Shown piece after piece: positions 4,195 through 32,496 of a stretch of DNA of 64,000 bases. The notes under the pieces were generated by a model. That model had not been told where the DNA came from. It ran no database searches and worked only from the letters and a program-made list of their open reading frames with translations. The translations under genes were made by a program, and so were the position numbers. The stretch is from positions 69,975,561-70,039,560 of the forward strand of contig NC_088775.1 in the NCBI RefSeq assembly GCF_954871325.1, read 5' to 3'. Numbering within the stretch: position 1 is the first letter of the stretch; every line of letters begins with the position of its first letter. The stretch is from Gordionus sp. m RMFG-2023. Taxonomy: Eukaryota; Nematomorpha; Gordioida; Chordodea; Parachordodidae.

Positions 4195-5690
4195 TTTTTT
4201 TCCTTTCCATAAATACATGTCTGCATGGTAATTGCATATTTAAAAAAAGGGGCAATCACAATAAAACATATTTGATTGGCAAACAATATTGCAGTTATCA
4301 CCAACATTATATTCATATTTTAACTCTTTGTATGCATATTCTGTTAACAATTTTCTATAATTAGCCAATGTTTGATCTTCCTCATTTATAAATGAGATTT
4401 TAATTTTTTTCATTGAATTATTATGTTCCCTTTCAGCACTTAAATTTTAATTGACATAATTAAATCAGTAAACATATTTGGAAGGGTAGAGTATTTGGTT
4501 ATGTTAATTATTAAATATTTGTTAATGCTTTCTACCCTGTTATTTGTATATTGTTTAAAGTTTAAAGGATATCTTTTCCAAGCATCGGACCATTCATATC
4601 TGATATGATGCCAGCCAGAAAAATAGTTAAATAATGATTCTAAATTTAAATTAGTTAATTTGTAATAATTTTCAAAATATATGTCAGAAGACTGTGCATC
4701 TAGCAAGCTATACAACAGATGCTTCTTTGAAGCATTTGTGATGCTACATCAAATGACTCCGATTTGACAATCCATACACATATAATATGTGATCTATTAT
4801 TTCCATCAATTGATACCAAAATATACACAGGCATATGCCTATTATTTAATCGATATGTTGCATCCACACATATTACTTCAGGATATTTTAAAAAAATATA
4901 CTGCATTTGATGAGTTTGATAATATATACCAATTAGATTCCCATCTACAGTATATAATTCCATATTAGCATCATTATCTTCTTCAACTTTATCTATCATT
5001 GTAATTAAATCATTATCATAAGTTTTTTTTGTATTTTTGTCTATATTATACAAATCTCTTAGGGTTATAAACTTTCCTTCAGAAAATAGTTTATTTTTTA
5101 TTTTGGATTTATTTCCTCCTGTAGTTATAGCTTCAACTACAAATTTATACTGTGCTTCATTAAGCTTTCTTTGTCTGAGTAATGATTGGTATAAATTTTC
5201 ATCTAAAATTAATCAAAAAATGCATTTTTCATTTGTTTTAAAAACATTATTTCATACTTTTATCTTATATATATTCTATCAAAATTTAATAAATTAACCC
5301 TATAAGCCTATCCAGTATCCATATCACTAAGTTAAATTATATATTTATCTTAATAATTTCAAGATTATGTGCCTTTACCATGGGGATGATTGTGATTTTC
5401 ATGCATATCCTTGGACAAATAATTTGTTTTTCATGAATGTAATTTGCAAATGGAATTGACATCCTTGTTTTATAGACATGTAATTGCGTAGACCTGTGGA
5501 TTTTGTATTGTACTTTCCACCAAATATACAAAGAAATTTTATGCTTTTATATCTAAATTTTTCAAAAAGAGGTGATTTTAAAATATTTGAATCTGATATA
5601 TAAAGATTTATGTAATTTAAATTTTCATATTGCTTTATAGCATCTTGTAAATCTTTATAGGATAAAAATATATATCCTTCTTTCATATTT
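4195..5690 (-). pseudogene. MULE (Mutator-like) transposase with FAR1-like N-terminus and SWIM finger, decayed
   Basis: Cut-and-paste transposase. Read on the minus strand from 5,686, the parts come in the usual order. First is a FAR1/ZSWIM-like N-terminal domain (CQFHLQITF then HENHNHP near 5,370-5,400). Then comes a helical segment at 5,050-5,205, entered through a possible intron acceptor (ATTAATTTTAG). The MULE core at 4,700-5,053 has the family signature YPEVICVDATYRLNNRHMPV, whose first Asp is a catalytic candidate. The segment 4,440-4,715 contains NRVESINKYLIIN. A SWIM zinc finger (CDCPFF ... MQLPCRHVF) lies at about 4,205-4,290. Frame changes separate the HNHP motif, the two core segments and the SWIM finger (one base short in a T run), so the gene is broken. 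Terminal inverted repeats were not found. Confidence 0.85.
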
Positions 5691-6695: not shown

Positions 6696-7866
6696 TAGGG
6701 ATGTATCGATACCACTTTTTTGGAGTCCGATCCGATATTCCCGATATTAAATTGATATCGGTCGATTACCGATCCGATATCATATCTAATTTTGTATTCT
6801 GTAAAGATACCAATGGTTTTCATTTATAATATACTTTTTATTGGTTAATGATGCTTTCTACCAAGTGAATGTATGGAAATATTTTAAATACCAATCTAAT
6901 TTGCTAAATACCGACCAAAATTTATTAAAATGTAATAAGATACTTATTATTTAATATATTAATACGGAATCACGTGGTCGAGTCCGGCCTTCTATATCAT
7001 CCCCCCAAGGATGGAACCACCAAGTTAGAATAAGAAAAAAAACATGATCATTCCCGGGATTCGAATCCGGGAGCATGGGATAAGTGAGCCAAGCTCTTGC
7101 CTACTAGGCCATAGAGGCTTTCCAAAAATTACGATTTTTCAAATATATATTATAAATATATTTGGTAGTGCCTATCCAAATTCAAATTTGATAGATGGTA
7201 CCTTAAGGTAGTAAGCATCATTAACCCTTTTTATTAGTATAACGTCTATAATTTAACTATAAATATATTATAATGATCACTTATAGTTTATATACAATTC
7301 AATTGCAATTCTATAAAAATATAAAATATTTTTATTGTTAAATCACTTTTATATAATAAGTAAGTAATAACATTTCACTTTTATATAATAAGTAATAACA
7401 TTAATCTATATATATAATAAGTAATAAACAATTATATTATGAAATTTGAAATAAATATTGAAAATAATATTTAACATTATGATATCGAAGATTTCTTTTT
7501 AGAAATACCAATATTTCCAATTTATCAGAGGTCAGCATGCGATGATAGTAACTGTCAATATCACCAACTTCACTAAAAAAGATTCTGAAGAAAATTTCGC
7601 ACACTATAATAAACAGGATGCGCAAAAAAAACAATATGGCAGAATGTTTATTAATTATTTATTATTATTAAAAAAATATACATAAAAATGGATTTCGATT
7701 TTATTTATAAAAATAAATGATCTTAGATATAACTTTTTTTAAAAATTTTATAACATTTTATTTTTGTTAAAGAAGCCATTTTATATCAAATTTTATAATA
7801 TTGGCCGACGGATATTTTAAAGGGTGAAGTCGGCCCGATCCGATAAAAAATATCGGCACATCCCTA
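6696..7866. mobile_element. hAT MITE, TAGGGATGTACCGATA family, with nested MITE
   Basis: The ends are TAGGGATGTATCGATACC on the left and CGGCACATCCCTA on the right, flanked by 8-bp direct repeats ATATTTTT/ATATATTT (one mismatch), as expected for hAT. The subterminal region repeats CCGATCCGATAT and GATATCGG motifs. The interior has no open reading frame of note. Another MITE (6,843-7,226) is inserted inside. A second full copy lies at 21,139-21,870 and a left-truncated copy at 14,885-15,341; alignment with these confirms the outline. Confidence 0.85.
6843..7226 (-). mobile_element. tRNA-containing MITE, 9-bp target duplication (MULE-like), copy 1
   Basis: The ends form an imperfect 20-bp inverted repeat: GGTTAATGATGCTTTCTACC on the left, and the reverse complement of the right end is GGTTAATGATGCTTACTACC. 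It is flanked by a perfect 9-bp direct repeat CTTTTTATT (6,834-6,842 and 7,227-7,235), and the relative at 21,139-21,870 shows the empty site. Inside, on the minus strand, lies a tRNA-derived segment (about 7,118 down to 7,048) with an A box TGGCCTAGTAGGC and a B box GGATTCGAATCCC plus a pairing T stem. A 9-bp duplication points to a Mutator-like superfamily; other 9-bp groups remain possible. A pol III promoter inside a cut-and-paste MITE is unusual. Confidence 0.85.
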
Positions 7867-31850: not shown

Positions 31851-32120
31851 TGAAATTTAAATTATCTCTACTTTTATATTTTAACATTTTTTAAGCCTTT
31901 TTATATATAAAGATATTATTACGACTAGTGTTGTTAAAAAGCCCGATTTGTGTCGATTTTAAAAAGGGCTTGATTAAGACTTTAGCCAAAATAATATTAT
32001 GTTAACCTGATGATTTTGCTCACAGATGGCAGGAAGGTTTGGATGACAAAAAAACCTGCTTTTGAGATTAAATTTAAAAATAAAAACCTGATTACCAAAA
32101 TATTTTTAAATATGATTTGG

Positions 32121-32487
32121 GGTTAATGATGCATACTACCAAGTGAATGTATGAAAATATTCTAAATACCGACCAAAATTTATTAAAATGTAATAAGACC
32201 CTTATTATTTAATATATTAATACGGAATCACGTGGTCGAGTCCGGCCTCCTATATATTATCCCCCACCAAGTTAGATTAAGAAAAAACATGACTATTCCC
32301 GGGATTTGAACCCGGGACTACGGGATCAGCAAGCCAATCTCTTGCCTACTAGGCCATAGAGGCTTTCCAAAAATTACGATTTTTCAAATATATATTATAA
32401 ATATATTTGGTAGTGCCTATCCAAATGAAAAATGAACAAAATTCAAATTTGATAGATAGTACCTTAAGGTAGTAAGCATCATTAACC
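32121..32487 (-). mobile_element. tRNA-containing MITE, copy 2
   Basis: Ends GGTTAATGATGCATACTACC and GGTAGTAAGCATCATTAACC; perfect 9-bp duplication ATGATTTGG at 32,112-32,120 and 32,488-32,496. The tRNA-derived segment on the minus strand keeps an A box TGGCCTAGTAGGC (32,344-32,356) and a consensus B box GGGTTCAAATCCC (32,301-32,313) inside a perfect T stem (CCCGGG...CCCGGG). It differs from copy 1 by indels outside the tRNA part. The anticodon arm does not pair well, so it is not a functional tRNA gene. Confidence 0.9.
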
Positions 32488-32496
32488 ATGATTTGG

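Follow-up and report, generated by a model that had tools for sequence, protein, structure and literature searches.

The element at positions 6834-7235 of the window (by which the complete 64-kb stretch of DNA analyzed in the current work is meant) combines inverted ends and a target duplication, being marks of DNA transposition, with an internal tRNA-like segment of the kind that is found in a SINE. This combination raises the question of how the element spreads, for which the initial annotation had offered two readings: either a SINE or tRNA gene was captured by a MULE-like MITE, or a single element makes use of two modes of spread.

Two copies of the element in the window

Copy 1 is a MITE of 384 bp (6843-7226, on the minus strand, the strand being that of the tRNA-like unit), delimited by the left terminal inverted repeat GGTTAATGATGCTTTCTACC (6843-6862, plus strand) and by a right terminal inverted repeat (7207-7226, minus strand). 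The 20-bp inverted ends that had been claimed for this copy are complementary at 19/20 positions (95%, one mismatch), and the claimed target duplication is indeed perfect, the 9-bp sequence CTTTTTATT being present on both sides (6834-6842 and 7227-7235). Copy 2, a MITE of 367 bp with the same orientation as copy 1 (32121-32487, minus strand), is located between two perfect 9-bp copies of ATGATTTGG (32112-32120 and 32488-32496).

The tRNA-derived core with A and B boxes described by the initial annotation was likewise recovered on the minus strand of copy 1, where the A box TGGCCTAGTAGG occupies 7100-7111, the B box GATTCGAATCC, with one mismatch (family consensus GGTTCGAATCC), occupies 7057-7067, and a terminator-like T8 run is located behind the tRNA-like body at 7035-7042. 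The predicted Pol III transcription unit of ~87 nt (7035-7121, minus strand) would consist of a 3-nt leader, the tRNA-like body and the T-run, its extent being deduced from the boxes and from the retro-copied unit in locus L102 (see below). In copy 2, the interval from A box to B box (B box GGTTCAAATCC) is situated at 32302-32356 and a T6 run is found behind the tRNA-like body at 32282-32287, both on the minus strand.

The 12-mer GGTTAATGATGC occurs exactly four times in the window, these being both ends of the two elements. When up to two mismatches are allowed, seven matches are obtained in the window as compared to 5.24 expected by chance, and the mismatch-tolerant 12-mer alone is therefore no proof of an element, the reality of which rests on the paired ends and the 9-bp repeat. 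The A box/B box pattern, which was composed after the sequence had been seen and in which one B-box position was loosened (R) to admit copy 1, occurs exactly twice in the 64 kb (7057-7111 and 32302-32356, both on the minus strand) and in none of 100 shuffles.

A young family with 9-bp target duplications

The genome (287 Mb in 267 contigs) was searched with the whole element and with its core, which yielded 60 loci and, upon removal of copies without two placeable ends and of repeats of one locus, 50 distinct copies with both ends. The family consensus is 402 bp in length, and the identity of the 50 copies to this consensus ranges from 95.1 to 99.5%, which indicates that the MITE family is young, bearing in mind that these copies are the best search matches, a choice which favors high identity. 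Genome-wide, the exact 22-bp end is present 647 times and the reversed control pattern is absent (0 occurrences); the family thus amounts to hundreds of near-identical copies, in which no coding capacity was seen.

Target duplications of 9 bp are typical of MULEs. Among 70 distinct copies of the MITE, the 9-bp duplication is perfect in 53, contains one mismatch in ten and shows three or more mismatches in seven, and no 9-bp repeat was obtained in 2000 shuffled flank pairings. The expectation that every copy is flanked in this manner consequently holds for 63/70 copies (with at most one mismatch) but not for the other seven.

Relationship of the MITE to MULE transposons

An odd GGTTAATGATGC end was located at C4:11925937, at a distance of 1.3 kb from a MULE transposase match, and the protein piece near this end contains the Pfam MULE domain PF10551 (6.7e-16). 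A 30-mer search retrieved three ends of this kind, each at a separate locus with its own flanks. All three start with GGTTAATGATGCTTAC, which is identical to the first 16 bp of the MITE, and each is placed within ~2.3 kb of fragments of the same C4 MULE family; for one of these three 16-bp-sharing MULE copies, inspection of 6 kb did not reveal the far end. A further three copies of the C4 MULE family begin 16 bp further in, at GGGTAATGAT, and are without the 16 bp. One of the latter is 6,495 bp in length, has inverted ends of at least 170 bp and is flanked by the 10-bp direct repeat GTGGCCCCTA, as read from the flanks by eye. The start GG(T/G)TAATGAT is common to the MITE and the MULE family, and beyond the terminal 16 bp no convincing sequence common to the two was found. 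Considering that three MULE copies begin with the first 16 bp of the MITE, mobilization of the MITE by a MULE is likely, and from the shared ends we infer that the C4 MULE family, or a near relative of it, would perform this function. The search for an autonomous partner was in this sense partly successful, in that a MULE family with related ends was obtained, but one which is only a likely relative of that partner.

Three other candidates for the partner were rejected. The window itself contains an ORF of 170 aa with MULE/ZSWIM-type domains (4700-5212, minus strand), to which more than two dozen genomic pieces correspond with an identity of at least 86%; it belongs to another MULE family (40% identity to the likely partner), and in 15 loci of this family only 2-mismatch words of the MITE end were seen, nearly all of them at two recurrent places within the match. 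A homologue search with this ORF found none, and no match was obtained in a plasmid collection. An end pair of 9.8 kb (L076-L077, C1:22558554-22568412) was found to be a single MITE into which another element has inserted, the 9-bp repeat GACATTGGT of the MITE being preserved around the whole; the nested insertion measures ~9.4 kb, has tandem-repeat ends and an ORF with a BED zinc finger, and is hAT-like by reading. Finally, the 1.74-kb pair L079 (C1:36233559-36235296) is a composite which has the same terminal motif and contains the MITE body 28-402 together with ~1.4 kb of other sequence, and which is bounded by the 8-bp repeats AGAAAGTA (flanks read by eye).

Structure of the tRNA-like unit

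Read along the minus strand, the unit is composed, in this order, of GCCTCTA, the A box TGGCCTAGTAGG, the B box GGTTCGAATCC located 32 nt further on, CATG and the T-run. The boxes were scored in 62 copies, being the 50 copies mentioned above and 12 copies chosen for lacking the exact core. In this sample, the A box is perfect in 48 copies and has one mismatch in 12, the B box is perfect in 54 and has one mismatch in six, the spacing between the two boxes is 32 nt in 58, and the longest T-run comprises at least six residues in 60. A strict motif for both boxes, as expected of the internal promoter of a SINE, was found in 49/62 copies.

ARAGORN and Rfam called no tRNA in the window, and the segment is therefore considered to be tRNA-derived rather than a standard tRNA gene. 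Across 49 loci, ARAGORN called a tRNA in one (L013), as tRNA-Ser(act). An Rfam scan of two copies gave no tRNA match; in one of the two, the T arm was aligned to tmRNA (tRNA clan) with 11 bits and an E-value of 0.017, far under the family cut-off. The recognized cloverleaf of a functional tRNA gene is accordingly not a property of the unit in these scans, and the fold predicted for it surpasses that of shuffled sequences by a small margin only (z -1.57).

A solitary unit fused to a dispersed repeat

Locus L102 contains a solitary, full tRNA-like unit, the T-run of which is fused in sense to a ~395-bp repeat at the 5' start of the latter (GATTATTGGCC..). Within its predicted transcribed part, the unit departs from the consensus by three substitutions, and its T-run is T7 instead of T8. 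The 5' limit of the unit, TTAAAAGCC, is situated 3-6 nt before the tRNA-like body, and a similar leader is present in some MITE copies. Unit and repeat together form a joint insertion between two copies of AATTTCCCGTCT, a target duplication of 12 bp. The empty site, without the insertion, is preserved in L105, a paralogue located nearby.

The ~395-bp repeat is likely to be a SINE or the end of a LINE. Three other copies have nearly identical starts and ends, target repeats, scored as 10 and 13 bp, are present in two of four examined copies and absent from the other two, and one copy scanned with Rfam gave no convincing match. The repeat (L102:120-252, L106, L107, L108) has many copies and a tail reading ..ATCACGTATCACGT.

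Considering that the breakpoints of L102 are placed at the expected transcript ends, and that there is one 12-bp duplication, the locus fits a jump of a reverse transcriptase onto a finished Pol III RNA. On the arrangement of this one locus (n = 1), L102 has the appearance of a chimera that arose from such an RNA by a template jump; it may also have been formed through a DNA-level accident. A second case of the L102 type was not present among the places retrieved by the two context-excluding patterns that are described below.

Variability within the unit

Variability in the non-box part of the tRNA-like segment (MITE consensus 203-278) exceeds that of the remaining element, which does not apply to the boxes. 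Non-CpG variable sites amount to 28/49 in the non-box segment versus 79/274 in the rest of the element when the 50 copies are used (p 2e-4), and to 28/49 versus 52/274 when the 31 full-length-query copies are used (p 1e-7). For non-CpG sites with G or C, the corresponding values are 18/24 versus 39/68 (50 copies, p 0.15) and 18/24 versus 27/68 (31 copies, p 0.004). The faster change at non-box sites could be due to transcription-linked mutation or to absent constraint, and no conclusion was drawn from it because the copies are related and were picked by similarity.

Lost constraint would allow the variability of the non-box part if the unit were a dead passenger, that is, a silent sequence copied along with the MITE, in which case L102 would have arisen by DNA-level shuffling of a MITE fragment. 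The weak tRNA calls (ARAGORN in 1/49 loci, Rfam in neither of two copies) agree with such a passenger. We nevertheless regard this explanation, which survives best among the alternatives, as unlikely: L102 breaks where a transcript would be expected to end, carries one 12-bp duplication and has the empty paralogue L105, and the boxes, their spacing and the T-run are kept in nearly all 62 copies, an argument which says little in a young family.

Within the tRNA-like segment, the boxes carry 0.010 substitutions per site as compared to 0.042 in the rest of the segment (50 copies). The proportion of variable sites in the boxes and in the rest of the segment is 9/23 versus 32/53 in the 50 copies (Fisher p 0.13) and 7/23 versus 32/53 in the 31 full-length-query copies (p 0.02), and relative to the rest of the element the boxes show no greater conservation (p 0.48 and 0.28); all of these p-values are too small, the copies being related, not independent, and picked by similarity. 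Constraint on the boxes is thus suggestive at best. Were the promoter selected at the level of the transposon, the unit could aid the element, with Pol III/TFIIIC occupancy holding copies in open chromatin or steering insertion, and the lower variation of the A and B boxes within the segment is what such selection would predict; we place this second alternative among the unlikely ones as well, given that the boxes do not stand out from the element as a whole and that the comparison is made on related, similarity-chosen copies.

The tRNA-like segment as a regular part of the element

The first 100 of the 647 exact ends (C1, to 41.03 Mb) were taken as a census, in which 37 pairs with ends 350-412 bp apart and 26 unpaired ends were obtained. 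The short, non-coding and homogeneous structure of a MULE-type MITE was found in all 37 paired elements, all of which fall within this length range. The exact 16-bp tRNA core is present between the ends in 25/37, and the remaining 12, whose sequences were inspected, all align along the full consensus, with 9-bp repeats that are perfect in 11 and have one mismatch in the twelfth. The tRNA-like segment is therefore contained in 36 of the 37 paired elements (25 by exact core, 11 by sequence), so that its supposed presence in every copy was confirmed for these 36 but not for L095 (350 bp), in which most of the segment, including the B box, has been deleted. As for the unpaired ends, nine of the 26 are near an exact core, two belong to a MITE split by nested insertion and one to L079.

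The exact 16-mer core TGGCCTAGTAGGCAAG occurs 229 times in the genome. Forty of these cores are located in the census stretch of C1, and 34 of them adjoin an exact MITE end, as judged by position; the other six comprise three MITEs with worn ends, two cores (L101 and L104) in a module within another inverted-repeat element, and the solitary unit of L102. Two patterns which exclude the MITE's own 5' context, with sensitivities estimated at 40% and 70% from an assumed base composition, matched 4 and 11 places, the 4 being included in the 11; the first context-excluding pattern, a weak one that catches perhaps one in eight unrelated flanks, had given no match. The 11 places are L102, L112, whose module limits are those of L101 and L104, and nine MITEs, of which seven were recognized by sequence, one is L019 and one lies inside a paired census element.

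The module was observed at L101 (C1:19955400), L104 (C1:37618950) and L112 (C2:29998900), where the inner part of the MITE (consensus ~22-318) is enclosed within another repeated element with identical limits in all three. As the tRNA-like unit is included, this element represents a second carrier of the unit. In L101 and L104, the ends of this second carrier resemble CTTTCATATAAAAACC, and GGTTAATGA of the MITE end is still present at the L104 joint.

The arrangement that would point to simple insertion of a SINE, namely MITE copies lacking the tRNA part together with a tRNA part bounded by its own duplication, was looked for. According to the accessible text of PMC6887750, recent insertion of a SINE into a MITE copy is the route that its authors propose for the MITE MER6, and in the present family it would imply that the composite exists side by side with a second form. 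This is improbable here, given that the empty form was found in 0/37 paired elements of the census stretch, i.e. the first 41 Mb of C1 (the 17 unpaired ends with no exact core nearby could include copies without the tRNA-like unit), and that searches with the exact core found no free SINE population carrying it. An old, diverged SINE family would escape exact-core searches, and an ancient SINE origin of the segment may therefore stand.

Proposed origin and spread of the element

Taken together, the element is probably a 402-bp MITE which is moved as DNA, likely by a MULE, and which regularly carries a predicted Pol III tRNA-like unit specifying an ~87-nt RNA that ends in the T-run. Of the two initial readings, it is the MULE-like MITE with a captured tRNA-derived unit that agrees with the ends shared among the copies, the 9-bp duplications and the unit in 36/37 paired elements. 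An ancestor would have picked up a tRNA gene or the head of a SINE prior to the expansion of the family, and the transposase would come from a relative of the C4 MULE family. Pol III would transcribe the unit from the internal A and B boxes, with the RNA ending at the T-run; this predicted transcription has one independent genomic witness, L102. At that locus, a LINE-type reverse transcriptase, upon reaching the 5' end of the ~395-bp repeat, would have switched to the finished Pol III RNA at the 3' end of the latter and continued through the unit. The Pol III RNA would not be the vehicle of the MITE's own spread.

The other reading, in which reverse transcription provides the entire element with an additional, SINE-like mode of spread, was not upheld and is hardly credible in spite of the Pol III-type promoter and the one unit-level retro-copy (L102), in view of boundaries which are those of a DNA transposon (constant ends, which are inverted repeats instead of a start just before the A box and a LINE-like or simple-repeat tail, an A box that begins 131 bp inside on the minus strand, and duplications of 9 bp in 63/70 copies with at most one mismatch rather than of variable length) and of an internal T-run which would stop a Pol III transcript early, such that it would include neither end. 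The nearest approach to a second mode of spread is the single retro-copied chimera of L102, in which the tRNA-like unit alone is involved.

A more far-reaching version of the proposed origin, for which we suggest the term 'MITEp3', is advanced as a tentative and rather doubtful possibility. The family would then be a DNA-transposon counterpart of SINEs and TRIMs which seeds hundreds of active Pol III units, the RNAs of which are taken by LINE-type reverse transcriptases to give rise to new tRNA-headed retroelements, and L102 would be a SINE at birth with a transposon promoter. The chimera of L102 points to a specific way in which new SINEs could obtain their head from a DNA transposon and, if this reading of the locus is true, a cut-and-paste transposon would be a possible seed for SINE-type retroelements. 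For annotation purposes, it is noted that such copies could be misfiled as SINEs or as tRNA pseudogenes.

Comparison with known systems

Pol III promoters are known in SINEs and in some LTR miniatures, to which a DNA transposon that keeps such a promoter intact in hundreds of young copies would add a third type of carrier. In the literature searched, in which the coverage of subscription papers is small, no DNA transposon was found to be described as containing an intact Pol III unit of the tRNA type. As the movement of the present carrier needs no RNA, any upkeep of its promoter could be studied apart from retroposition.

The family resembles MULE-derived MITEs in its inverted ends, its 9-bp duplications and the presence of a MULE family with related ends in the same genome, and is unlike them in its tRNA-like unit, which comprises both boxes and the T-run. 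The closest class II parallel is MER6/MER6A, a Tc1/Mariner MITE containing a V-SINE which, as described in the accessible text of PMC6887750, has lost its tRNA head, preventing transcription, and belongs to a family that is no longer active. Both are class II miniature elements that carry and spread a SINE-type module; as far as that text goes, the present young family differs in keeping a head-like part with a T-run behind it.

On the side of the retroelements, the accessible text of PMC10886601 describes the TRIMp3 group (Cassandra, Helenus and Ajax) as LTR miniatures with Pol III promoters, 4-5-bp duplications being reported for Helenus and Ajax, for which RNA serves as the template; the term 'DNA transposon' is absent from the main text of that paper. 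TRIMp3 elements, so described, share with the present family that they are non-autonomous, are moved by the machinery of another class and have the Pol III promoter of a small-RNA gene aboard. They are unlike it in their LTRs, the present carrier being a DNA transposon with inverted ends and 9-bp duplications. A DNA-transposon counterpart of the Pol III-promoter TRIMs is, judged from these sequence features, the best reading of the family.

L102, in turn, can be compared to the chimeras of LINE-1 and small RNAs for which the accessible text of PMC13174262 gives target duplications of 9-19 bp in eight tRNA cases, template switching or RNA ligation as the explanation, and antisense tRNA halves as the form of most tRNA chimeras. 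Similar to these, L102 joins a small-RNA sequence to a retroelement within one target duplication; unlike those described there, its unit is full-length and in sense, and the RNA would derive from a MITE.
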